A stretch of 64,000 nt of DNA from Polyangium jinanense (GTDB taxonomy: Bacteria; Myxococcota; Polyangia; Polyangiales; Polyangiaceae): contig NZ_JAGTJJ010000011.1 in assembly GCF_028435365.1 (NCBI RefSeq), positions 124,001 through 188,000 on the forward strand, written 5' to 3'. The translations under genes and the position numbers were made by a program. This document shows, piece by piece, positions 25,480-64,000 of this stretch (the stretch's first letter is position 1; every line of letters starts with the position of its first letter). Under the pieces are notes generated by a model. That model saw only the letters and a list, made by a program, of their open reading frames with translations. It had not been told where the DNA came from and made no database searches.

Positions 25480-28400
25480 GTGTCCGTGCGAGTTGCGCGG
25501 AACCTGACCTGGATCCACCTCTCCGATCTGCATTTCGGTCATGGCAAGGAGGCGACGACGCGCTTCGATCAGAAGCTCGTGGCCGACGCGATCATCCACG
25601 ACGCCGTGACGGTGGCAGGCGAGCTTGGCCCGCCCGACGTCGTGTTCGTGACGGGGGACATCGCTTTTTCCGCCTCGGCCGACAAGGAGTATCCGACCGC
25701 GAAGGAGTGGCTCGACAAGCTGCTGGCGGCGCTGAAGCTCGGCCCGGAGCGCGTGTTGCTCGTGCCGGGCAACCATGACGTCGATCGCAAAAAGGCCCAG
25801 GAAGGACCGAGTCGGCTCGTCCACAAAGGGCTTCGGTCGAACCCGGACGAAGTGAACGGGCTCCTCGAGAAGGCCGACGAGATGGAGGTGGTCTGGCCCA
25901 AGCTCGCCGCTTACCAGAACTTCGCGAAGGCCTTTGGCGCCCCTGAAATAACCCCCGCGATCCCCTTCTGGACCAAGCAGCTATCCAGTGATCTCGGTCC
26001 GGTGGAGGCCATCGGTCTGAACACGGCGCTCCTGAGCTTCGACAACGGGGACAGCCGAGAAAACCTTGCCCTCGGCCTCGGCCAGCTTTTGCGTGCCCTC
26101 GAAGGGGTGAAGTCCGACGCTCTCCTGTTCGTTCTCCAGCACCATCCGCCGGGGTGGCTGCGGGATGGCAAGGACCTCCTCGCGCTGCTCAAAGGCAGGC
26201 CGCATCTCTTGCTCTATGGTCACGTCCACGATCAGCATGGCTTCGTCACCCTTCCGTTGGACAGCCGCGCCAATCTAGAGCTGGTGGCGGGAGCGGGGCA
26301 CCAGGACGCGAAAGAGGAAGGGAATCACGCCTACGCGTGGGGGCGGCTGAATCGCGACGGCCTCGAGTATTACCCTCGTGCTTGGCTGAAGCGGGAGCTG
26401 AAGCTCTGGGCCCAGCAGATCCTTCCGCCCGAGGATCAGAAAGGCTACAGCCTGAAGCTCGGCGAGTTTGTTCGTTTCCCGCGGGCGAAGCTCCCCGACG
26501 CGCTCGACCGATGGCTGGCGAACAGCACGGCGCACGCTCCTTCTGCTTCGACCGCCGATTCGATTACCGGACCGGCAGCTTTCAGCGGGGCCATCGCAGA
26601 GCCTGCACCTGCCCCTGCTGCTCCGGTGGTCGCCACGTTTGATCCCGCGAACGCATACGTCTCCATTCCCTTCCGAGCCAAGGGCGATCAGGTCGTCGGG
26701 CGCGCGGACGCCTTGAAGAAAGTGCGCGAGCAACTGGTGAAGGGGCGGCGGACGGCGATCGGCCAGACGGCGGCGTTCGTCGGGCTGGGCGGTCTGGGGA
26801 AGACCCAGCTCGCAGTCGAGTATGCCCATACGTACAAGGATCAGTATCCGGGCGGTGTGTACTGGTTCAATGCGGATGCGGATCTGCATGCGCAGCTCAC
26901 GCGTCTGGCGTGGGCTGCTCGCTGGGTAAGCCCGGCAGCGGAACCGCGGGTGGTATTGGAAATCGCGACTCACCAGATCCGGAACCGCTCGAACTGCCTC
27001 ATCGTGTTCGACAATGTGGAGAATCTCGCAGCGATCGAGTTTTTGCTGCCCGAGGGCTCTGCGACCCCCCACCTGCTCATCACGAGTCGCGTCTCCCAGG
27101 TCGGCTTCGATCCAGTGCCAATTGATCCCTTGACCGAGGTGGAGTCACTGGAAATGCTTCGACGTGAGTCCGGGCGCAGCCTGGACAAGCCGAGCGACCA
27201 CGAAGCAGCGCTCCGCATCGTGAAGCAGCTCGAAGGGTTACCCCTCGCGCTGGAGCTTGCAGGTGCATACCTGCGGCGAGCCCATGGTGTTTCTTGGATG
27301 TCCTACGCGGATCTCCTGGAGAGCGAGGGCGTCAAGGCGCGTGGGCTTCGGGATGGCCCGTTGTCGAGCTTCACCAAGCACAATGCGGATCTGTACGCGA
27401 CGCTGCGTATTCACAAATCCATCCTCGATGATTCGCCTCTACTTGGTGAGGCCCTCGATCTGCTGGCATGGAGCGGGGCAACGTCGATGGGCAGGGAGCT
27501 CCTCGGATACCTCCTCGGCCGTGAATCAGCGGCGCTCGATGTAGCGCTCGGTGAGGCGGAGACGCTGCGGATCCTGAAGCAGGAGCAGGGAAGCGTTGAC
27601 CCATCAAACGCTCGCTTCCAGATGCATAGGCTGGTGCGAGAGGTGCGACAGGCAGAAGTTCCCCTGGCGCGGGAACCTGCACGATGGCTCGGTGTGCTGG
27701 AAAGGCTTGGGAATTGGTTTCAAGATCGCCGGGACAATTTTGCTCACCTCTCCTTCTACGAGGCAGAGCTCGATCACCTCGAAGTATGGCAGAAGCACGC
27801 AGCTCGCATGGGCTATATGCGCGATGCGGTGCGACTCTTGTGGTTGCGCGCATATCCGCCTTATTATCGAGGACAATATCGACAGGCTCACGACACGGTG
27901 AAGAGTGCACTCGCCTTGTTTGAGGGTTCCGCTGTCATTGACCCTAAATTGGAAGCGTATCTGCGCAATGATTGGGGCCGCACGCTTAACGAACTCGGCG
28001 ATCATCGAAAGGCGCTAGAGTACCACCAGCAAGCCCTCGACATCCGCCGTGACGTTCTTGGCGAAACCCATCCCGATACCGCAGAATCGCTTAACAATGT
28101 AGGACATTCCCTTGGCGAAACCGGAAATCATCGAACGGCGCTTGAATATCAGAAGAAGGCTCTCGAAATCTACCGTAAAGTCCTTGGGGAAACACATCCC
28201 AACACGGCAACCTCGCTGAGCAATATAGGTGGTTGGCTCGGCAAGTGTGGGGAGCACGAAGAAGCACTCGAATACCAACTGCGAGCTCTCGATATTCACC
28301 GTGAAGTTCACGGCGAGGCACATCCAGACACCGCCCTGTCGCTCAATAATGTGGGCGGTTCCTTCGGAGAGCTCAGGGAATATCAAAACGCGATCGACTA

Positions 28401-28791
28401 CCATCAGAAAGGTCTGAGCATCCAACTTCAAGTTCTCGGGGAGAACCACCCCGACACCGCCACCTCGCTCCTCAACGTAGGAATGACTCTCCAGAAGCTG
28501 GGAAATCCCGTCCAGGCGCTAAAGCACTTGAAGATGGGGCTTTCGATACGCCAGGAGACCCTCGGCGACAGGCACCCCGATACGCAGCATTCATGGGAGA
28601 ATGTCGTTCGGCTTCTGCTGCGTCAGCGTAAGAAGGCAGACGCATTGGCGTTGGTCGAAAACGACCTGAAGAAGTTTCCGCACAACCCAACACTCAAACG
28701 CCTCAAGCAAGAGATTCTCGGCAGGCGCTCTGCAAAGGTCCACGGCAAAACTCCGGGCCCGACCAAGAAGGCCAAATCTCCGAAACGATAG
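25480..28791 (+). CDS. STAND protein: calcineurin-like phosphoesterase / NB-ARC NTPase / TPR sensor
   Basis: 1103 residues, start GTG 25480. The N-terminal metallophosphoesterase has D16-x-H18, GD (59-60), GNHD (97-100) and GHVH (247-250), so all metal ligands look intact. The NB-ARC NTPase has Walker A GLGGLGKT (435-442), Walker B IVFD with Asp511, the sensor-like TSR in LLITSR, and GLPLAL near 586, followed by a winged-helix region. From about 790 to 1070 there are at least six kinesin-light-chain-type TPRs of 42 residues (LGETHPDTAESLNNVG, LEYQKKALEI). The plan is effector-switch-sensor, as in antiphage and NLR-like STAND proteins. No signal peptide or membrane helix was seen. It sits next to a restriction-modification cassette. 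Confidence 0.9.
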   Translation: MSVRVARNLTWIHLSDLHFGHGKEATTRFDQKLVADAIIHDAVTVAGELGPPDVVFVTGDIAFSASADKEYPTAKEWLDKLLAALKLGPERVLLVPGNHDVDRKKAQEGPSRLVHKGLRSNPDEVNGLLEKADEMEVVWPKLAAYQNFAKAFGAPEITPAIPFWTKQLSSDLGPVEAIGLNTALLSFDNGDSRENLALGLGQLLRALEGVKSDALLFVLQHHPPGWLRDGKDLLALLKGRPHLLLYGHVHDQHGFVTLPLDSRANLELVAGAGHQDAKEEGNHAYAWGRLNRDGLEYYPRAWLKRELKLWAQQILPPEDQKGYSLKLGEFVRFPRAKLPDALDRWLANSTAHAPSASTADSITGPAAFSGAIAEPAPAPAAPVVATFDPANAYVSIPFRAKGDQVVGRADALKKVREQLVKGRRTAIGQTAAFVGLGGLGKTQLAVEYAHTYKDQYPGGVYWFNADADLHAQLTRLAWAARWVSPAAEPRVVLEIATHQIRNRSNCLIVFDNVENLAAIEFLLPEGSATPHLLITSRVSQVGFDPVPIDPLTEVESLEMLRRESGRSLDKPSDHEAALRIVKQLEGLPLALELAGAYLRRAHGVSWMSYADLLESEGVKARGLRDGPLSSFTKHNADLYATLRIHKSILDDSPLLGEALDLLAWSGATSMGRELLGYLLGRESAALDVALGEAETLRILKQEQGSVDPSNARFQMHRLVREVRQAEVPLAREPARWLGVLERLGNWFQDRRDNFAHLSFYEAELDHLEVWQKHAARMGYMRDAVRLLWLRAYPPYYRGQYRQAHDTVKSALALFEGSAVIDPKLEAYLRNDWGRTLNELGDHRKALEYHQQALDIRRDVLGETHPDTAESLNNVGHSLGETGNHRTALEYQKKALEIYRKVLGETHPNTATSLSNIGGWLGKCGEHEEALEYQLRALDIHREVHGEAHPDTALSLNNVGGSFGELREYQNAIDYHQKGLSIQLQVLGENHPDTATSLLNVGMTLQKLGNPVQALKHLKMGLSIRQETLGDRHPDTQHSWENVVRLLLRQRKKADALALVENDLKKFPHNPTLKRLKQEILGRRSAKVHGKTPGPTKKAKSPKR

Positions 28792-28977: not shown

Positions 28978-29382
28978 ATGAAGAACATCATTGGGTACCA
29001 CAACACCGAGAAGATGGGCTACTCCCTCATCGACGGGAAGGGGCCGTTCACGTTCTACACGAGGAAACCCGTCCAGCACCTCCTCGGCGCGAGGGTATGG
29101 GCGATTGCTGGGGAAGGCCAACCGAGGAGGTACTTCCTCGGGGGCTGGTTCATCGTCAACGAGGCTCGCCCAACAGATCGTGATGAATTCACCAACCTCG
29201 TTCGAGGGACGGAGGGCAAGACGTTCAAGCCCATGATTCGCCTGGACCAGCACGCGTGGTTCGCGGACTTCCGAAAAAGTCAGAGCAATTTCAGCCTGGG
29301 ACTTCTGGCGGCAAAGGACGAGTTCGTGAGGCACCTCGAGGCCCTCGCCGCGCAGGCGACGGCCACGAAAGGACGAGGCTGA
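28978..29382 (+). CDS. small protein of unknown function in the defence region
   Basis: 134 residues from the ATG at 28978, with AAGGAAGG just upstream. Aromatic-rich alpha/beta sequence: NTEKMGYSLIDGKGPFTFYT, GARVWAIAGEGQPRRYFLGG, FKPMIRLDQHAWFADF, NFSLGLLAAKDEFV. The strand pattern VWAIAGEG..RRYFLGGWFIV recalls the PUA-like EVE/ASCH fold found in proteins that read modified bases, but I see no diagnostic motif, so that is a guess. It lies between the STAND gene and the tandem repeats and is on the same strand. Confidence 0.65.
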   Translation: MKNIIGYHNTEKMGYSLIDGKGPFTFYTRKPVQHLLGARVWAIAGEGQPRRYFLGGWFIVNEARPTDRDEFTNLVRGTEGKTFKPMIRLDQHAWFADFRKSQSNFSLGLLAAKDEFVRHLEALAAQATATKGRG

Positions 29383-29412: not shown

Positions 29413-29607
29413 GTCGACAACGACCGAGGACCTTGTCGACAACGACCACGACCTCGTCGACAACGACCGGGCACCTCGTCCACGACCATCACGGCTTCGT
29501 CGACAACGACCGGGCACCTCGTCGACAACGACCGGGCACCTTGTCCACGACCACCACGGCTTCGTCGACAACGACCGGGCACCTTGTCGACAACGACCGG
29601 GCACCTC
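29413..29607. repeat. tandem array of nine 21-22 bp units, each beginning GTC(G/C)AC
   Basis: Units start at 29413, 29435, 29456, 29478, 29499, 29521, 29543, 29564 and 29586. Type 1 units are 21-22 bp and begin GTCGACAACGACC. Type 2 units (29478, 29543) are 21 bp and begin GTCCACGACCA. The period is close to two helical turns, and type 1 units contain the palindrome GTCGAC. No unique spacers separate the units, so this is not CRISPR. The same units recur on the other side of the restriction-modification genes at 31944-32020. Confidence 0.9.
29456..29513 (+). repeat. 58-bp direct repeat, left copy
   Basis: These 58 bases (two full array units plus the first 15 bases of a third) are identical to 31944-32001, 2,488 bp away in the same orientation. 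The pair brackets the endonuclease and methyltransferase genes and would allow their loss or gain by recombination. Confidence 0.88.
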
Positions 29608-29662
29608 GTCGACAGGTACTGGTCAAAGTTGACCAGCCGGTCCCGAAAGCTGACCTGTCGAC
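29608..29662. repeat. left palindromic end of the restriction-modification cassette
   Basis: Nested inverted repeats: outer arms GTCGACAGGT / ACCTGTCGAC (29608-29617, 29653-29662) and inner arms CTGGTCAA / TTGACCAG (29619-29626, 29629-29636). The outermost 19 bases, GTCGACAGGTACTGGTCAA (29608-29626), are the reverse complement of 31931-31949 except for one mismatch, giving the cassette terminal inverted repeats. Confidence 0.8.
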
Positions 29663-29900
29663 GCAGACCTCCTCACGGCATGTGTGTCATGTAAGCAATG
29701 TTGCGCACTGGTCGTTCCCTACCACTTGAACGTACTTTGTTACCCTGGCCGTCCGGCGCCTGGGCGCCGCATCAGGGTTGTCGGACCATCCCTCGTCGGG
29801 CTAGGCTGCCTCGCGCCGGGTACACGGTTGGCACTTCGCCCGCTCCACACTGGACTGAGTTGCAGTCCGCCTCAATACCGACCCAGGTTCGGAAATAATC

Positions 29901-30734
29901 ATGACGCCGTACAAGGAATTCACAACTCGTCTTACGCTGCTAATCAGCAAGAATCCGCATCTGATCACGACGACGTTGAGTAATATCTTTACAATGCGGC
30001 TCATCGGCAACAAAACCCATGGCGACTTGGCCGAGATTGCCATAGCCGAATTCATCAACCAGTACATGTACGACTTCAAATCCGTACACGTCGGGAAGGA
30101 CTTGTATAGAGCAAAAGAACACGAAGAGGACATCAAAATCATAAACGAAATCACCAAGGCTGAGTTCCCGGTGAGCCTCAAGGCATATGGCGACGGTCCT
30201 CTCCAGCTATCAACCGACAAGAACTTTCTGATGTATCCAAAATTGCAACAAATGAAATCGCCAATTCAGGGGGCGCAACTCTCAGCATTGTGGAGGGATC
30301 CGGTATTTGCTGACTTTAGTGCACTCAATGTGCTACCTCTAATCTACGACGAAAGGAGGCAACGGTGTAACATTCTGGTATTTGATCAGGAGAAAGCGAA
30401 GGAGCAGATAGCGAAGATCGTTCACGAAGAAGAAGGCAAGGGTCGAAAACATCCGGTGTATCGTTTTTATGATCGAACCGGGGATTATGTATGCGAAGTC
30501 CGTTACGGGAGCGGGACAGCCAATGCCCTGCAGAGAGGTCTGTGGACCAATACAAAAAAAGGATTAAAGTATTTTGATAGTGTCACGGGTGGCTGGATTA
30601 CGTATTCACGCAACCAAATCCTGGTAAAGTTGTTCTCGCATGCGCTTCTTGCTACATCGAGCGGCCATGAAGCGGCATTGGAAGAGTTAAAAAAGGACAT
30701 CGAAACGCAAAAGAAGATGTCCGCATTGGGATGA
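29901..30734 (+). CDS. probable type II restriction endonuclease
   Basis: 277 residues. No family motif is certain, but the context is strong: the stop codon is one base from the start of a DNA adenine methyltransferase. Candidate PD-(D/E)XK residues are E45 in GDLAEIAIAEF, D77 in KEHEEDIKI, and K94 in FPVSLKAYGDG. The C-terminal third is basic and Lys-rich (KKGLKYF, LEELKKDIETQKK), as expected for DNA binding. The gene is visibly AT-richer than its surroundings, with A/T-ending codons and runs of A, which points to recent transfer. It is expected to cut unmethylated DNA at the site protected by its partner; the recognition site cannot be read from sequence. Confidence 0.68.
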   Translation: MTPYKEFTTRLTLLISKNPHLITTTLSNIFTMRLIGNKTHGDLAEIAIAEFINQYMYDFKSVHVGKDLYRAKEHEEDIKIINEITKAEFPVSLKAYGDGPLQLSTDKNFLMYPKLQQMKSPIQGAQLSALWRDPVFADFSALNVLPLIYDERRQRCNILVFDQEKAKEQIAKIVHEEEGKGRKHPVYRFYDRTGDYVCEVRYGSGTANALQRGLWTNTKKGLKYFDSVTGGWITYSRNQILVKLFSHALLATSSGHEAALEELKKDIETQKKMSALG

Positions 30735-30735
30735 T

Positions 30736-31875
30736 ATGAATACGCTGGCTCTATTCGACGACATAATAGTCGAGGCTCCGAAAACCGAGGGCATCAAATA
30801 TGCTGGTTCCAAGCAAAAGCTGTTGCCACACATCATTGCTTTGGCGAAGAAGGTTCGTCCCAGAACCGTTCTCGACGGCTTTGCTGGGACAACTCGCGTT
30901 TCTCAGGCTTTCGCGCAAAACGGCTACTTGGTAATTGCAAACGACGTGTCGGTGTGGTCCGAGGTGTTCGGACAATGCTACTTGCTCAATGAGCGTCCCC
31001 AATCGCACTATGTGCCACTGATAGAACACCTTAACAACCTACCTCCCGAAGATGGGTGGTTTACTGAAAATTACGGCGGTGACCCAGGGGACGGGACGTC
31101 GGTGGGGGTAGATGGTCTGAAGAAGCCATGGCAGCGACACAACACCCGTCGACTCGATGCAATTCGAAATGAAATTGACCGCTTGAGCTTGACGCCAGTT
31201 GAAAGGGCCGTCCTCCTAACGAGCCTGATATACGCGCTGGATGAAGTCGACAGTACACTCGGGCATTTTGCCTCCTATCTCCATGATTGGTCGCCACGGT
31301 CATACAAGACAATGCAGCTAAGGACTCCAGCCTTATTGCAGAGACGCGCCTCCCATCAGGTGTATAGAAAGGATATCTTCGAACTCCTTCCAGACGTTAA
31401 GGTCGATCTGGCATACCTCGATCCGCCCTACGGATCCAATAATGAGAAAATGCCGGCCTCAAGAATCCGTTATGCTGCTTACTACCACCTGTGGACAAGT
31501 GTATGCCTGAACGATCGCCCCAGCGTCTTTGGAAAGGCCAGGCGACGATCGGACACATCGGACGTTGTTGCAACCTCGGTCTTCGAGGAATTTAGAAGCG
31601 ACAGTCAAGGCCGTCTGATAGCAGTTGACGCAATCAGGAGAGTTCTGCACGCCACCAAAGCTAGGCATATCATTCTCTCCTACAGTTCGGGCGGTCGTGC
31701 GACTGCAGAGCAGCTCAACGATGCGATTGCACAGATTGGGCGACTACTCGAAGTCGTAGAGCTCGACCACCGAAAGAACGTGATGGCTGGCATGCGGTGG
31801 ACGAATGAGTGGGTACGCGATGCAGAACGGCCCAACAGGGAGTTTCTGTTTCTTGTGGAAAAGACAACGACCTGA
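30736..31875 (+). CDS. D12-class adenine-specific DNA methyltransferase
   Basis: 379 residues. The D12 layout is clear: motif X-like YAGSKQKLL (22-30), SAM-binding motif I DGFAGTTRVS (47-56), and catalytic motif IV DPPY (229-232) followed by GSNN, then YYHLWT. It should methylate N6 of adenine in the site cut by the preceding endonuclease. Its ATG (30736) follows the endonuclease stop by one base, so the genes are translationally linked, nuclease first. Like the nuclease gene it is AT-richer than the host genes. An orphan epigenetic role is less likely given the tight pairing. Confidence 0.92.
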   Translation: MNTLALFDDIIVEAPKTEGIKYAGSKQKLLPHIIALAKKVRPRTVLDGFAGTTRVSQAFAQNGYLVIANDVSVWSEVFGQCYLLNERPQSHYVPLIEHLNNLPPEDGWFTENYGGDPGDGTSVGVDGLKKPWQRHNTRRLDAIRNEIDRLSLTPVERAVLLTSLIYALDEVDSTLGHFASYLHDWSPRSYKTMQLRTPALLQRRASHQVYRKDIFELLPDVKVDLAYLDPPYGSNNEKMPASRIRYAAYYHLWTSVCLNDRPSVFGKARRRSDTSDVVATSVFEEFRSDSQGRLIAVDAIRRVLHATKARHIILSYSSGGRATAEQLNDAIAQIGRLLEVVELDHRKNVMAGMRWTNEWVRDAERPNREFLFLVEKTTT

Positions 31876-31930
31876 GCTCTCGCTTCAGAAACCGCCGAGA
31901 TTTCGCAAACTTGACCACTTGAAGGGAAAG

Positions 31931-31949
31931 TTGACCAGTACCCGTCGAC
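31931..31949 (-). repeat. right 19-bp inverted repeat of the restriction-modification cassette
   Basis: TTGACCAGTACCCGTCGAC is the reverse complement of 29608-29626 with one mismatch. A further TTGACCA lies 20 bp upstream (31911). The end lies 56 bp after the methyltransferase stop. Confidence 0.8.
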
Positions 31950-32027
31950 AACGACCGGGCACCTCGTCCACGACCATCACGGCTTCGTCGACAACGACCG
32001 GTGACCTTGTCGACGAAGACCGGGTAG
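31944..32027 (+). repeat. right copy of the GTCGAC tandem units and 58-bp direct repeat
   Basis: Three full units (31944, 31966, 31987) and a degenerate fourth starting GTCGACGAAGACC at 32009. 31944-32001 is identical to 29456-29513. The array runs to within a few bases of the start codon of the next lipoprotein gene, so it replaces that gene's normal upstream region. Confidence 0.88.
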
Positions 32028-32028
32028 A

Positions 32029-32397
32029 ATGCCCACCATGCTTCGCCCCCTCCTCGCTTCGGCCTCGCTCCTCTCCTTGCTCACCCTCGCCGGCTGCGAC
32101 GAATGCGACGAGATCGATTGCGCTTGCCTGCATGGCTCCATCGTCGTGACCGCCGTCGACGCGACCACGAAAGAGGCGCTCTTCGACGCCAAGGTCGCCA
32201 TCGGCAACGACCCCTGCCCGGAGCATGCATCGGAGCACTACTGCTTTGTCGCCGCCGGGACCTATTCGGTTCAGGTCTCCGCGACGGGGTATGCTCCGAA
32301 GACGGTCTCGATCGTATTGCCCGAACCGCAGGGGGAGGGCTGCTGCATCTGCGGGGAACGCGTCGAGCAGACCGTCGAGCTCACGCCGATGCCTTGA
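32029..32397 (+). CDS. small lipoprotein with carboxypeptidase-regulatory-like domain
   Basis: 122 residues from the ATG at 32029 (ATG 32038 is an alternative). The signal peptide ends in TLAGC (Cys23). The mature domain has the Ig-like pattern IVVTAVDATTKEALFDAKV..AAGTYSVQVSATGYAP, typical of carboxypeptidase-regulatory or PEGA-like beta-sandwich modules, with eight further cysteines. Probably a cell-envelope protein. Host-like GC content resumes here. Confidence 0.8.
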   Translation: MPTMLRPLLASASLLSLLTLAGCDECDEIDCACLHGSIVVTAVDATTKEALFDAKVAIGNDPCPEHASEHYCFVAAGTYSVQVSATGYAPKTVSIVLPEPQGEGCCICGERVEQTVELTPMP

Positions 32398-49489: not shown

Positions 49490-51187
49490 CTATTTCCGCA
49501 GCCGCTCCGCGACCGAGGTGTGCACCGCGATGTACGCCGGCAGATCCTCGTGGTCGTCGTAGATCACCTGATAGCCGTACTTCGACAGCCACACGGGCGG
49601 CCTCCCCGCGTCGAAGATGATCACCGGCGGGGTGAGGTTGCACCTCTGTTCGAGCTCCTTTGCGTGCTCGATGATGTACTTGAGCTCGATATGCACCCCG
49701 TGCACGAGGCGCTGCTGCGCGCGCGCGGGCACGCAGTTCGCGAGCTCCTTCGACGATAGGTTGTACTGGTCGAGGAAGTGCAGCGCGCCGTAATACTTCT
49801 GCACCACGTGAAACGGCACCATCCCCGCCTGGCCCGAGATGAACGAGAGGGGCTGCTCGCGCGTCGGGCCGAGCTTTTCGAGCGTCTCCAGGAACGCGGG
49901 CAAGAGCTTCGCGTCGCGGCGGTGCGGGCGGTTCGCGATCTCCGGGAACGAGAAGGCCGCCATGCCGGGTTTCTCGCGGGCCGCGCGTGCCTGTTTCCTG
50001 GCCTCGGCCCACCTGTGGCTCATGTTCAACGGCGACCGACCAAAATCGATCACGGCGTTCACGTTGAGCCAAAGCAGCGTCGCGCCGAACAGAAAGCCCA
50101 CCGCCGCCGCCCGCTCTTGCGACGCGCGGTCGATCGCGAAGAGCATGAGCACGACGTACGCCGGCATGGCGGGCACGAGGAACCGCGCACCCGTCATCCA
50201 ATCGCCCCCGCTCATCAGGACGAACGCCGTCGAAGCGAACGCGAGCGCCGCCGTGAGCACCACGGACATCGGCAGCCGGCGCTTCACCACGCCCCAGGCG
50301 ACCATACCGAGCGCCACGCAAAGGAGGGGCACGTATGCCGAATTCGTCTCTTGGAAGCCCGCTTGCGCGTAACGAAGCCCGTTGTCGAAGTCGAAGCCCC
50401 CCGATTTCATGCTCGCGGGGTTCGGCACGGCGCTGCCGAAGGCCACCTTCCGCGACACGGCCAGCACGACCACGGGCGTGATCGCCGCGCCGAGGACGTG
50501 CAGGCTCCGAAGAAAACGACGCCGCGCCTCTGCCGTCTTGTCGAGCGTGCGAAGCAAAAACGAATACGTCGCCGCCGTCGCCGCGAGCGCCAGCAAAACG
50601 ACGGGCGACTCGGGCCGCGCGCCGGCGAAACCCGCGGAGACGAGGACGACGGGCGCGAGGGCGCGAACGGTCTGACCACGCCCGGCCGTTTCGCTCGGCT
50701 CGCTCTCGACGTACCGGGCGAGCACGAGCACGGCGAGCACGCCGAAGAGCGCCGTCATCGACGTCTCCATGCCGCTCGTGCTCCAGTACAGAAAACACAG
50801 GCTCGTCGCGAGCAGCGGCGCCGCGAGCGGCGAGAGCCGCGGGGACACGCCGCGCGCGAGGACCGTCACGACCCCGAGGGCGAGCGCCGCGCAGCCGATG
50901 CTGGTGATCCAGCCGAGGATCGGCGCCCCCGCGCCCGTGAGCTTCTCGGCGAGCGCCAGCCACACCACGAGCGAGAAGCTCGAGCTTTGCTCGATGGGGG
51001 CCCCATTGTAGTTGACGATCGCCCCGAACCGGGCGAGCGCATGGGAGACCCAGAACGTGATGTGGCTATCGTCATGCCCGGCCGACGGAAAGTAAGTGGC
51101 ACCGAACACGACGCCGAGCAGGAGCCCCAGAACGAGCCCGACCCAGGGGGCATGCTCGCGCAGCCGTTGCAAAAGACGCGTGATCAT
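49490..51187 (-). CDS. polytopic glycosyltransferase-like protein, smaller relative of the AftB-like protein
   Basis: 565 residues, ten or more membrane helices. The early loop GHDDSHITFWVSHALARFGAIVNYNG followed by IEQSSSFSLVVWLALA aligns in plan with the DDAF...EGYTNFLW motif of the gene at 46580, again with paired aspartates. It lacks the long C-terminal soluble domain. Probably a GT-C transferase for the same surface polymer. It is the upstream gene on the minus strand, with 120 bp between the two. Confidence 0.78.
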   Translation of the reverse strand: MITRLLQRLREHAPWVGLVLGLLLGVVFGATYFPSAGHDDSHITFWVSHALARFGAIVNYNGAPIEQSSSFSLVVWLALAEKLTGAGAPILGWITSIGCAALALGVVTVLARGVSPRLSPLAAPLLATSLCFLYWSTSGMETSMTALFGVLAVLVLARYVESEPSETAGRGQTVRALAPVVLVSAGFAGARPESPVVLLALAATAATYSFLLRTLDKTAEARRRFLRSLHVLGAAITPVVVLAVSRKVAFGSAVPNPASMKSGGFDFDNGLRYAQAGFQETNSAYVPLLCVALGMVAWGVVKRRLPMSVVLTAALAFASTAFVLMSGGDWMTGARFLVPAMPAYVVLMLFAIDRASQERAAAVGFLFGATLLWLNVNAVIDFGRSPLNMSHRWAEARKQARAAREKPGMAAFSFPEIANRPHRRDAKLLPAFLETLEKLGPTREQPLSFISGQAGMVPFHVVQKYYGALHFLDQYNLSSKELANCVPARAQQRLVHGVHIELKYIIEHAKELEQRCNLTPPVIIFDAGRPPVWLSKYGYQVIYDDHEDLPAYIAVHTSVAERLRK

Positions 51188-55684: not shown

Positions 55685-58300
55685 TCACGACGGCGGCCCC
55701 GCCTCGATCGCCCGCCGGTAGCGCTCCCGCCGCGTCCCATCCTTCAAAATCTCGTAGGCCTCGTCGAGCACCTCGATCACGAGGCGCACATCGCTCTGGA
55801 GATCGGCCGTCGCCGCCGTGAGCAGGCGCGAGGGCTCGAAGAAGCGCCGGAGCTCCAGGTAAGCCCGCCGGATTTCGTAATTCGTCGCCGTGCGCCCGAT
55901 GCCGAGCAACGCGAAGTAGTCGCCGTCCTCGACGAGCGCGACCCGCGCCCGCACCCGCATGCGGACCGCCTCCTCGTCGAGCGGATCCTCCGCGAGCCGT
56001 CGCTCGGCCGTGGCAGGCCGCACCGGCGTGAGCGCCGCGAGGACCTCCAAACAAACGAGCGCGTAGAGCAGCGGCATCATGTCAGGCCCCGATCGGGCCG
56101 CGAGCTCGCCGACGGTCGTGCCCGGCGCCTGCCCCACGAGCGCCGCTTCATCAGGCAAGAGCGCACACTCGGAGAGGAGCGTCATGCGCGTGCCTGCGTC
56201 GAACCGCGCAGCCGCGCCGCCGAGGCGCGCGACCGCGACTTCGGGCGGAATCACGCGCCGGACGATCTCCACGAAGACCTCGGCCCCCGTGGCGCCACCA
56301 AACACGTTGGGCTCGGCACGCAGGCGGCCCGGCGGCTCGGCTTCGAGCTCGAGGGTGCCGGACTCGATGAGGATCGCCCTGCCGATGATCCACTCGGCAT
56401 GCGCGCGGAGGACGGGCCAGAGCGCGTCCTGCTGGAGAAATCCGTGCGCGATGAGCGCCGCGCCCGCATGCCGGCCCGAAGGCGGGAGCTTGCCGGCGAG
56501 CCGATGCGCGACGTCCCGCTCGAGGTCGCCGCGGGCCGAAAGGAAGGAGAGGAGCGCCTCGTCGGCGACGCCCGATCCAGCCGTGACCACGTCGCCGTCC
56601 TGCAAGACGACACGACGCACCGCGCCACCTTCGTGCACCGCGAGCGAGCCCGTGACGCGGCTGGCGATCGCGCGGGCGAGGGCGCGCGGCGCGTCGCCGG
56701 GGCCGAGCACCGTGGGTTGCGGGCTGCGCGGGCCCTGCGAGGAATGCGCCGGCTGCGCGGACGGAACCGGCGCCGGCGGCGGGGGCACGGGCGGAGCGAG
56801 GCGCACCGACGGCGGCGGGGCATCGGAACCGCGGCCGAGGAGGCTGGGGGCCGTGGGCGGGCTCAGGGGGTTTGGGGGCGTAGCTCCGCTCGCCGGAGCG
56901 TAGCCCCCAAGCGTGGGAGGGTTCGAGGGCGTAGCTCCGCTCGCCGGAGCGTAGCCCCCAAGCGTGGGGGGGTTCGAGGGCGTAGCTCCGCTCGCCGGAG
57001 CGTAGCCCCCAAGTGTAGAAGCGAGGCGCGGCATGCCACCCGGGACCGTCCACCGGGACGGGAAGACCGTCGGCGGCGCGATGTCGATCAAGGGCTCGAT
57101 CACGGGCGGCGGCGGGCGCGGCGGCGTGGGCGCGGATGCGGGACGCGGCTCGACCGAGCGGGTGGCCGTGGTCGTCTCCGTCGGCCGGACCGGCGTGCCC
57201 GCATCGTCCGCGACCACGATGCGACTCGCGCGCGGCTCCCAGGCCGTCGCGGGGGCCTCCGAGGAAACGGCGCGGACGTCCGGCGAGCGCGGCGTCGATC
57301 CCGCGGGCGCGCTCCTCCCTGAAGACTCGCTCGGCTGCGGCGCGGACGGCACGTCGAGCACGAGGTCGCCTACGCTCGGCGGCTCGATGGATCCGGTCGA
57401 GGACACGGGCGGGTTTGGCGCGGTCGTGTTCCCTTCGGCCAGGGCAAACGAGCCGGTCGTGATGCTGAGTGCGTTTGGCCCCGTGCCCGGATCGATTCCG
57501 CCGGTGCCGAGGTCCGACTGCGAGCTATCCGCCTCGGCGTCGAGCGGCTCTTCGAGGATGGCGAGGAACTCGTCGGCGAGGATGAGGTCGAGCTCCTCCT
57601 CGACGGCCGCGGCTTGTGGAGGCGTGGACGACGAAGGCGTCTCCGCGAGCACGCGTTGCTCGGCCGCGGCGAGCATGTTCATGAGCTCGGGCGAGAGCTG
57701 CATGGGGTGCGGGGGCAGGAGCGTCGGCGGCGATGGCCCTTCGCTCTCGTCGGGCGGGAAGATCGACACGCCCATCTCGGCGATCTCGGGCGCGCCGGGG
57801 AACGCGGACTGGAAGGCTGGCGGGAAGGAGCTGGTACCGTCGTCGAGCAGACCCGGGGGCACGGTCTCGCCGGGGCGGATCGCCCGGGCGCCGCGGTCGT
57901 CGACGATCGAGTCTTCGTCGAGCGGGGCTGGGTCGGCGAGCGCGGCGATCTGGGCGACGATGGCGTGGATGTCGAGCGGCCGCGCGAAGGAGCGACCTGC
58001 GGCGGAGTGCGCGCCGATCTCGGCGGCGCGTATGCGGCTCCCCAGACAAACGAGCTCGGCGTCTTCTCCACCGGGCAGCTCGCGCAGCCGCTCGATGGCG
58101 TCACGCGCGCCGGGTTGATCGATGTCGACGAGCAGGACGCGCGGCGACTCGTCGAGCACGCGTGCTTCGAGCCGCTCGATCGGCGCGAAGGCCACGGCGA
58201 AGCCTTGCGCGCGCAGCGCCGACGCGATCGTTTGCCCTTCCGCGGAGGCATCCGCGATCAGGATCACGTCGCGACGCGGCGTGTTCGGGGCTTCCTCCAT
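55685..58300 (-). CDS. multidomain regulator: receiver-like domain, Pro-rich linker, DUF4388-like domain, degenerate J domain
   Basis: 871 residues from the ATG at 58300. Residues ~8-110 look like a receiver fold (VILIADASAEGQTIASALRAQGF, VLLVDIDQPGARDAIERLR), with D55-like aspartate in LLVDID. A ~350-residue low-complexity Pro/Ser linker carries three 17-residue repeats containing GGYAPASGATP. Then a DUF4388/PATAN-like domain (GSLAVHEGGAVRRVVLQDGDVV, RGDLERDVAHRLAGKLPPSG). The last 70 residues resemble a J domain (DYFALLGIGRTATNYEIRRAY) without the HPD motif. Such proteins are common in myxobacterial two-component signalling. Confidence 0.82.
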   Translation of the reverse strand: MEEAPNTPRRDVILIADASAEGQTIASALRAQGFAVAFAPIERLEARVLDESPRVLLVDIDQPGARDAIERLRELPGGEDAELVCLGSRIRAAEIGAHSAAGRSFARPLDIHAIVAQIAALADPAPLDEDSIVDDRGARAIRPGETVPPGLLDDGTSSFPPAFQSAFPGAPEIAEMGVSIFPPDESEGPSPPTLLPPHPMQLSPELMNMLAAAEQRVLAETPSSSTPPQAAAVEEELDLILADEFLAILEEPLDAEADSSQSDLGTGGIDPGTGPNALSITTGSFALAEGNTTAPNPPVSSTGSIEPPSVGDLVLDVPSAPQPSESSGRSAPAGSTPRSPDVRAVSSEAPATAWEPRASRIVVADDAGTPVRPTETTTATRSVEPRPASAPTPPRPPPPVIEPLIDIAPPTVFPSRWTVPGGMPRLASTLGGYAPASGATPSNPPTLGGYAPASGATPSNPPTLGGYAPASGATPPNPLSPPTAPSLLGRGSDAPPPSVRLAPPVPPPPAPVPSAQPAHSSQGPRSPQPTVLGPGDAPRALARAIASRVTGSLAVHEGGAVRRVVLQDGDVVTAGSGVADEALLSFLSARGDLERDVAHRLAGKLPPSGRHAGAALIAHGFLQQDALWPVLRAHAEWIIGRAILIESGTLELEAEPPGRLRAEPNVFGGATGAEVFVEIVRRVIPPEVAVARLGGAAARFDAGTRMTLLSECALLPDEAALVGQAPGTTVGELAARSGPDMMPLLYALVCLEVLAALTPVRPATAERRLAEDPLDEEAVRMRVRARVALVEDGDYFALLGIGRTATNYEIRRAYLELRRFFEPSRLLTAATADLQSDVRLVIEVLDEAYEILKDGTRRERYRRAIEAGPPS
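56880..57020. repeat. three tandem ~51-bp copies of a palindromic repeat inside a coding region
   Basis: Each copy holds the palindrome CGTAGCTCCGC-TCGCC-GGAGCGTAGC preceded or followed by CCCCCAAGCGTG and GGTTCGAGGG. In the minus-strand gene they encode the three GGYAPASGATP repeats. The same core occurs at 59814-59870 and, without coding, at 63902-64000. Confidence 0.8.
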
Positions 58301-58759: not shown

Positions 58760-59917
58760 GTGCAGACGCGCACGCGCAACGCCCTCGTCTTCGCGGCCGC
58801 CGCGGCGGTGGTCGTCGCGGCCGTCGTCTGGGTCTGGCAAAAACGCGAGATGGCCCGCCCGCTGCCCGGGACGCTCGACGCCATCCCCGAAGGCGCGCTC
58901 CTCGTGGCCACGGCCGACCTCGGCGCCCTGCGGCGCTCGGGCGCCTTCGCGCCCCTGCTCTCCGAGACCCGCGAAATCCCCGGCCTCGGCAAGGTGCGCG
59001 ACGTCTGCGGCACAGACCCCATGGCCGGCCTGACGGAGCTCGGCGTGGCCGTGCCCGCGTCGGGCGGCGACGGCGACTTCGGCCTCGTCGCCTCGGGCGC
59101 CATCGACCCGGACGCCCTGCTCGCCTGCGCGAGCAAAGTCATCGAGGCGCGCGGCGGCCGCTCCGTGGTGAACCCGATCGGCGCGTTCCGCACGGTGCGC
59201 GATGCGAAGCAGTCGACGAGCGGCGCGGAGATCGCCGTGCGCGAGGGCGGGCCCATCCTGCTCGGCGCGGGCAACTACCTGCGATCGATGATCGACGCGG
59301 CGGAGGGCCGCGTGCCTTCCGCGCGGGCCGACGGGGATCATACGAAACTCGCGTCGGAAGTGGGCCCGGGCGCGCTGCGCGTGACCGTGGTGCTCACGCC
59401 GGAGCAGCGACGCACGCTGCTCGAAGAGATCGCGCTGAGCGGGGCGCAGGGCTCGCCGGCGGCGTCGGTCGTCGGGCTCGGGCTCTCGGTTTCGATCGGC
59501 GAACGTGTGGGTTTGTCGGGGGTCGTGGCCTGCGACGCGCCGGCCCCATGTGCCGATCTGGCGAAAATCTTCGACGGAAAACGCGCCGCGCAGGCGGACG
59601 ACACGCTCGTGCGCCTGATGGGCCTCGGGTCGATCCTCGAGCGGCTGCGGATCGGCTCGGAGGGCTCGCGCATCTCGGCGCGCGTGGACATGTCGACGGA
59701 CGAGGCGACCGAGCTCGTGACGCGCGTGATCGCCTTGCGCGCCGCGGCAGGACGGCCCAAGTCCCCGATCGAGGAAGACCGGAAGGATCCGCCCCCGCCA
59801 AACCCAAAGCCGGCGCCAACGCTCGGGGGCTCCGCTCCGCCGAGCGGAGCTGTGCCCCCGAACCCCCCGTCGGAAAACCCGGCGGCGGAGCCGGCTCCGC
59901 CGCCGAAGCCGCGCTGA
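58760..59917 (+). CDS. membrane-anchored protein of unknown function
   Basis: 385 residues from GTG 58760; GTG 58703 would add 19 basic residues. An N-terminal anchor (ALVFAAAAAVVVAAVVWVW) is followed by a periplasmic alpha/beta domain (LPGTLDAIPEGALLVATADLGAL, TELGVAVPASGGDGDFGLVASG). The plan, a region built around substrate-free repeated GALLVA and GLGLSVS strands, resembles DUF3352-like secreted proteins. The C-terminal tail is Pro-rich and contains the in-frame palindromic repeat encoding GGSAPPSGAVPPNPP (59818-59870). Confidence 0.72.
   Translation: MQTRTRNALVFAAAAAVVVAAVVWVWQKREMARPLPGTLDAIPEGALLVATADLGALRRSGAFAPLLSETREIPGLGKVRDVCGTDPMAGLTELGVAVPASGGDGDFGLVASGAIDPDALLACASKVIEARGGRSVVNPIGAFRTVRDAKQSTSGAEIAVREGGPILLGAGNYLRSMIDAAEGRVPSARADGDHTKLASEVGPGALRVTVVLTPEQRRTLLEEIALSGAQGSPAASVVGLGLSVSIGERVGLSGVVACDAPAPCADLAKIFDGKRAAQADDTLVRLMGLGSILERLRIGSEGSRISARVDMSTDEATELVTRVIALRAAAGRPKSPIEEDRKDPPPPNPKPAPTLGGSAPPSGAVPPNPPSENPAAEPAPPPKPR
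59814..59870. repeat. palindromic repeat inside the C-terminal tail of a coding region
   Basis: Core GGGGCTCCGCTCC-GCC-GAGCGGAGCTGTGCCCC, flanked by AACGCTCGG on the left and GAACCCCCC on the right, matching the layout of the repeats at 56880 and 63902. It encodes the residues GGSAPPSGAVPPNPP. Confidence 0.75.
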
Positions 59918-63886: not shown

Positions 63887-63901
63887 CCCGGTCGTCCTTT
63901 C

Positions 63902-64000
63902 AACGCTTGGGGCGTAGCTCGGACAAGCCGAGCTACGCCCCAAACCCCTCAACGCTTGGGGCTGCGCTCGGACAAGCCGAGCTACGCCCCAAACCCCTCA
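63902..64000. repeat. two tandem 49-bp palindromic repeats at the right edge (third copy cut)
   Basis: Copies at 63902-63950 and 63951-63999, starting AACGCTTGGGG, with stem GTAGCTCGG-ACAAG-CCGAGCTAC inside the first copy and the variant GCGCTCGG-ACAAG-CCGAGCTAC in the second, ending AAACCCCTC. A third copy begins at 64000. Same family as the coding-region repeats at 56880 and 59814. Confidence 0.85.

Follow-up and report, generated by a model that had tools for sequence, protein, structure and literature searches.

A restriction-modification gene pair as the likely cargo of a small transposon-like element in a tandem array of Polyangium jinanense

Mobile restriction-modification units and the Polyangium locus

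The wide movement of small restriction-modification (R-M) systems that carry no mobility genes has so far been only partly explained. Mobile insertion cassettes and MITE-type elements have insertion-sequence-like ends enclosing transposase-free DNA, and are presumed to be moved in trans. The PluTI element of Photorhabdus luminescens, a putative small mobile element with a Type II R-M system, is reportedly delimited by 16-bp direct repeats corresponding to part of insertion sequences. Also close to the present case are R-M units that have duplicated a short target and end in imperfect inverted repeats, outlined in a paragraph of a review (PMC3874152, citing Furuta et al. 2010).

The locus described here lies in a 64,000-nucleotide stretch of a P. 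jinanense contig (the window). Its R-M pair is highly likely to be carried as cargo by a small transposon-like element that is non-autonomous, occupies positions 29615-31942 and was probably moved by a transposase acting in trans. With the mobile insertion cassettes and MITE-type elements it shares insertion-sequence-like ends, the lack of a recognized transposase and presumed movement in trans; here, however, the cargo is an R-M gene pair, and no cognate autonomous element was found in the collections searched. Like PluTI, it would be a small mobile element with a Type II R-M system, but it has inverted repeats and an 8-bp duplication rather than 16-bp direct repeats. The units in PMC3874152 resemble it in being R-M units that are terminated by inverted repeats, lie beside a short duplicated target and are not linked to any known mobile element. 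Going by that review paragraph alone, the present element differs in its perfect 12-bp ends, in the extra motif copies at each end, and in having a tandem array as its target, so that the period shows the joint directly. A literature search returned no paper on this particular element. It is a clear further case of such units, one whose ends are perfect, which has additional end sites, and whose joint can be read. Because the array period records the pre-insertion sequence, the ends and the target duplication can be read from one genome, and since the exact 12-bp ends and the end motif are searchable, the missing transposase and any sister cassettes should be directly findable.

Ends, target site and host array

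The features of the locus, in window coordinates, are as follows.

29413..29614, no strand: left part of the apparent host tandem array, 22- and 21-bp units, consensus GTCGACAACGACCGGGCACCTC, including the left 8-bp target copy
29607..29614, + strand: left copy of the putative 8-bp target-site duplication, CGTCGACA
29615..31942, + strand: proposed inserted element, 2,328 bp, G+C 0.515
29615..29626, + strand: left terminal inverted repeat, GGTACTGGTCAA, perfect over 12 bp
29619..29636, no strand: nested palindrome of the left end, CTGGTCAA-AG-TTGACCAG, made up of two TGGTCAA-type sites that point towards one another
29646..29656, - strand: third site of the left end, degenerate, TGGTCAACTTT-like with 2 mismatches
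29901..30734, + strand: predicted Type II restriction endonuclease, 277 aa (PADLOC PDLC03568, E 5.3e-129)
30736..31875, + strand: predicted D12-class adenine-N6 DNA methyltransferase, 379 aa (PF02086, E 3e-25; PADLOC PDLC03342, E 6.9e-156)
31907..31917, - strand: subterminal site of the right end, TGGTCAAGTTT, 20 bp inside the terminal site
31931..31942, - strand: right terminal inverted repeat (GGTACTGGTCAA on the - strand), perfect over 12 bp
31943..31950, + strand: right copy of the putative target-site duplication, CGTCGACA
31943..32024, no strand: right part of the same array, including the right 8-bp target copy

Two hallmarks of a transposon-type insertion are found here: perfect terminal inverted repeats at both ends of the element, and an identical 8-bp direct repeat immediately outside them, which reads as a target-site duplication (its phase would be matched by chance about 1 time in 22). 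Perfect 12-bp inverted repeats spaced 0.5-6 kb apart are common in the window, with 298 pairs, but only one of these, the present element, has an abutting outer direct repeat of at least 6 bp. Forty dinucleotide shuffles of the window yielded a mean of 153.9 pairs each, and across all 40 the abutting repeat measured 6 bp or more in 8 pairs, and 8 bp or more in 1 of them. There is no further exact copy of the ends in the window; with 2 mismatches there is one match, at 49762-49773, where 1.16 would be expected by chance.

An earlier note on this DNA, made from the letters and a list of open reading frames, had described 19-bp inverted repeats with one mismatch (29608-29626 and 31931-31949). These are present, but they consist of the 12-bp end, one mismatch and GTCGAC, because the duplicated target contains this palindrome. 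Part of the repeat is therefore target DNA, and the element's own ends are 12 bp long. Could the R-M unit have moved by itself, without any transposase, its own endonuclease opening the target at GTCGAC as a possible recognition site? This palindrome is found in the target and occurs 11 times across the two array halves (the duplicated target being counted in both), and PMC3031569 gives restriction-enzyme breakage as one of two proposed links to R-M movement. However, GTCGAC is common in the window (61 sites), terminal inverted repeats with multiple sites point to a transposase, and the restriction dependence in the experiments of PMC3031569 was mainly a matter of selection, making such self-movement very improbable.

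The left half of the array ends with GTCGACA at 29614, and the right half begins with CGTCGACA at 31943. When the flanks are joined with a single copy of the 8-mer, the array is continuous, and the joined unit agrees with the consensus at 22/22 positions. As far as the sequence goes, the array looks like host DNA that formed one array before the insertion. The perfect direct repeat of tandem units previously put at 58 bp is indeed perfect and made of the array, but measures 59 bp (29455-29513 and 31943-32001). It reflects array periodicity, being two stretches of one array, because the joined flanks give a continuous array; the long direct repeats thus appear as the halves of an interrupted array and not as the ends of a cassette. 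Arrival at a pre-existing array and possession of its own ends, which had been offered as alternatives, are supported by the sequence at the same time: a unit with its own ends, inserted into one pre-existing array. (The sequence GTCGACAACGACC, with up to 2 mismatches, matches 23 times against 3.55 expected.) The idea of an exchangeable cassette, with cargo swapped between the same repeats, is not supported: within the window, exact copies of the array core are confined to the surroundings of this element. An exact-pattern scan of genome contigs for the array elsewhere gave a single locus, in Nocardia, which by eye reads as repetitive coding DNA. Loss of the element by recombination between the array halves is possible.

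How much does the 8-bp overlap count for? Independent truncation of two halves of an array with a period of about 22 bp would, by our estimate, produce it at the chance frequency given above, and the weight therefore rests on the inverted repeats located exactly at both break points. This bears on another explanation, in which homologous or illegitimate recombination brought into the array, by exchange, a donor fragment that already had the array on both sides, the repeats being the vehicle. The 59 bp of identity between the two sides would offer homology, and movement of an R-M system by plasmid integration at chromosomal insertion sequence copies is reported in PMC3031569, with crossing-over at 1-3 bp in 2/28 products. 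However, recombination predicts neither that inverted repeats lie at the two break points nor that end sites are clustered, and the array runs on across the joint as a single array; this route is improbable.

Base composition also sets the element apart: its G+C of 0.515 compares with 0.682 for the window and with 0.705 (1-25000) and 0.688 (33000-64000) for the distant flanks. The R-M genes had been called AT-richer than surroundings of roughly 70% GC, and their composition does deviate (endonuclease 0.469, methyltransferase 0.527), but the contrast is weaker on the left, because the immediate left neighbours have a G+C of 0.60-0.61. At third codon positions, G+C is 0.56-0.58 in the R-M genes versus 0.70-0.95 in the seven neighbours measured.

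If the element is indeed a transposon-like one, the transposase would not be encoded by the element itself but supplied in trans, presumably from a related insertion sequence, and would recognize the 12-bp ends together with the repeated TGGTCAA sites beside them. The target of the insertion would have been a tandem array that was already present between genes, and a staggered cut would have duplicated CGTCGACA. Once in place, the methyltransferase would protect the host's sites while the endonuclease would cut unmodified DNA. Cells losing the unit would risk being cut, and it is proposed that the unit therefore persists better.

Sites within the ends and the presumed transposase

The motif TGGTCAA[ACG][GT]TT, with 0 or 1 mismatch, has four matches in the 64 kb, and all four lie in the two element ends. 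In the left end two TGGTCAA-type sites face each other, forming the nested palindrome that the earlier note had rightly seen there; in the right end two run in the same direction, 20 bp apart. When up to 2 mismatches from TGGTCAACTTT are allowed, there are five matches in the window, again all in the ends, the fifth being at the left end. A total of five is ordinary, because shuffles of the whole window (n=60) average 3.6 matches with a maximum of 7, and only the clustering is unusual: when the two 60-bp ends were shuffled 2,000 times, five matches were never reached. Repeated-motif arrangements of this kind may serve as transposase-binding ends, and the subterminal sites would presumably do so here.

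Several terminal repeats are also characteristic of IS21-type elements. Might the ends then belong to an element of this type that had its istA and istB genes exchanged for the R-M pair? Such an origin would fit the repeated occurrence of one motif at each end, but the exact motif was present at 0/30 IstB loci and 0/16 IS1595 loci, and with one mismatch at 7/30 and 3/16, a weak comparison because these 46 loci come from Nocardia's phylum, far from the host lineage. The plasmid IS21 regions gave the exact motif in 0/3, one of them having a single-mismatch match about 2 kb from istB. An IS21-type origin is considered unlikely.

The earlier statement that no transposase lies inside the element holds for the open reading frames (ORFs) scanned, among which no transposase, the mark of an autonomous element, was recognized. 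The 286 bp ahead of the endonuclease gene are without a recognized gene, and a 66-aa ORF at 29698-29898 has no Pfam match. Altogether 18 ORFs of at least 50 aa overlap the element, with family matches only for the two R-M genes; six others had no match in Pfam, so that the scans covered eight of the 18, the other ten being 51-94 aa long.

Nor was a cognate transposase with these ends found in the collections searched, that is, viral contigs, plasmids, the IstB and IS1595 loci and the plasmid IS21 regions. In plasmids the end sequences had no well-covering match. In viral contigs one exact end was present at 29 + 19 = 48 loci; at none of the 48 was it accompanied, at a distance of 0.4-6 kb, by a partner end with at most 2 mismatches and an outer direct repeat. 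One candidate (L025) was set aside, since by eye its end match falls within a long ORF on a phage-like contig. Another (L057) was rejected as a run of TGGTCAACTTT repeats between mutY-like and integrase-like genes (named by eye). A further scan with the end motif had no match, and in 396 genomes the end motif had one match (L063), near a contig end.

The gene pair, its relatives and its neighbours

The adjacent endonuclease and methyltransferase genes are the signature of a Type II R-M system, and the cargo is predicted to be one. In an alignment of 91 relatives, D77, S92 and K94 of the endonuclease are invariant, and its structure model (pLDDT 89.4) is consistent with a PD-(D/E)XK fold, with structural matches. 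Of the 3,874 proteins found with the endonuclease, 120 were listed, and the few of these that bear an organism name include Gammaproteobacteria, Deltaproteobacteria, Methylotenera, Terriglobia, Bdellovibrionales, Planctomycetes and Verrucomicrobiae at 76-83% identity, a spread that fits wide horizontal transfer. A tblastn search with the endonuclease had no match in plasmids or phages, and in viral contigs it found 0 loci with the single sequence and 5 with the alignment (one of which, L060, is the same contig as L007). With the methyltransferase as query there were 98 plasmid records, all below 60% identity, and 7 viral loci. The endonuclease had no match in 198 genomes of Nocardia's phylum, in a search run without a positive control; Corynebacterium proteins of the same endonuclease family are named in the second list of relatives described below.

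A distant related R-M pair, 50-55% identical, is found in L007, where a single pair of 9-bp inverted repeats occurs within 700 bp and lacks direct repeats on its outer sides. Ten other viral contigs (L002-L006, L008, L058, L059, L061 and L062) have a relative of one of the two enzymes, with no relative of the partner enzyme detected in the fetched locus (that of L061 being truncated). Lone methyltransferases in such contigs may protect phage DNA.

Does the family as a whole move as cassettes? It might form a dispersed class of transposase-free cassettes with fixed ends, in which the R-M pair sits in the place of the transposase as the only cargo, with relatives of near-constant length in many phyla, but this is doubtful. 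Among the closest endonuclease relatives, 8/118 have their longest contig at 2,458-2,493 bp (a pile-up found after the fact), a weak hint of assemblies ending at cassette ends. This first list comprised 118 of the best 120 of the 3,874 proteins; excluded were the window's own contig and a protein that lacked a length. In simulations with two smoothing widths, a pile-up of this size was reached in 84 and 26 of 4,000 for a 40-bp length window and in 97 and 55 of 4,000 for a 30-bp one; it is not robust, because with a 60-bp length window it was reached by 630 and 287 of 4,000. In the second list (119/120, one protein already counted being left out), the tightest cluster held 5/119, which was reached by 234-785 of 4,000 simulations (30- and 40-bp length windows).

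Upstream of the element, at 25480-28791 (+ strand), lies the gene for a protein of 1,103 aa in which calcineurin-like phosphoesterase, NB-ARC and TPR domains are found. The N-terminal region of this protein matches the anti-phage models PADLOC PDC-S60 and NCBIfam DS8 (the latter far below its curated cut-off), which makes it a candidate defence gene near the R-M unit, and together the two may form a small defence patch. Directly before the array, a gene at 28978-29382 (+ strand) encodes a 134-aa protein with no family match in Pfam, NCBIfam or PADLOC. When the downstream lipoprotein, whose gene lies at 32029, was used as query, 3 proteins were retrieved, namely its own record, a Polyangium sp. 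y55x31 protein (86%) and a protein of a Polyangium metagenome assembly (77%). Elsewhere in the window, at 56868-57013, 59816-59868 and 63900-64000, there is a second, different repeat family; its repeats are 49-51 bp long, have a palindromic core and resemble dispersed REP-like repeats.
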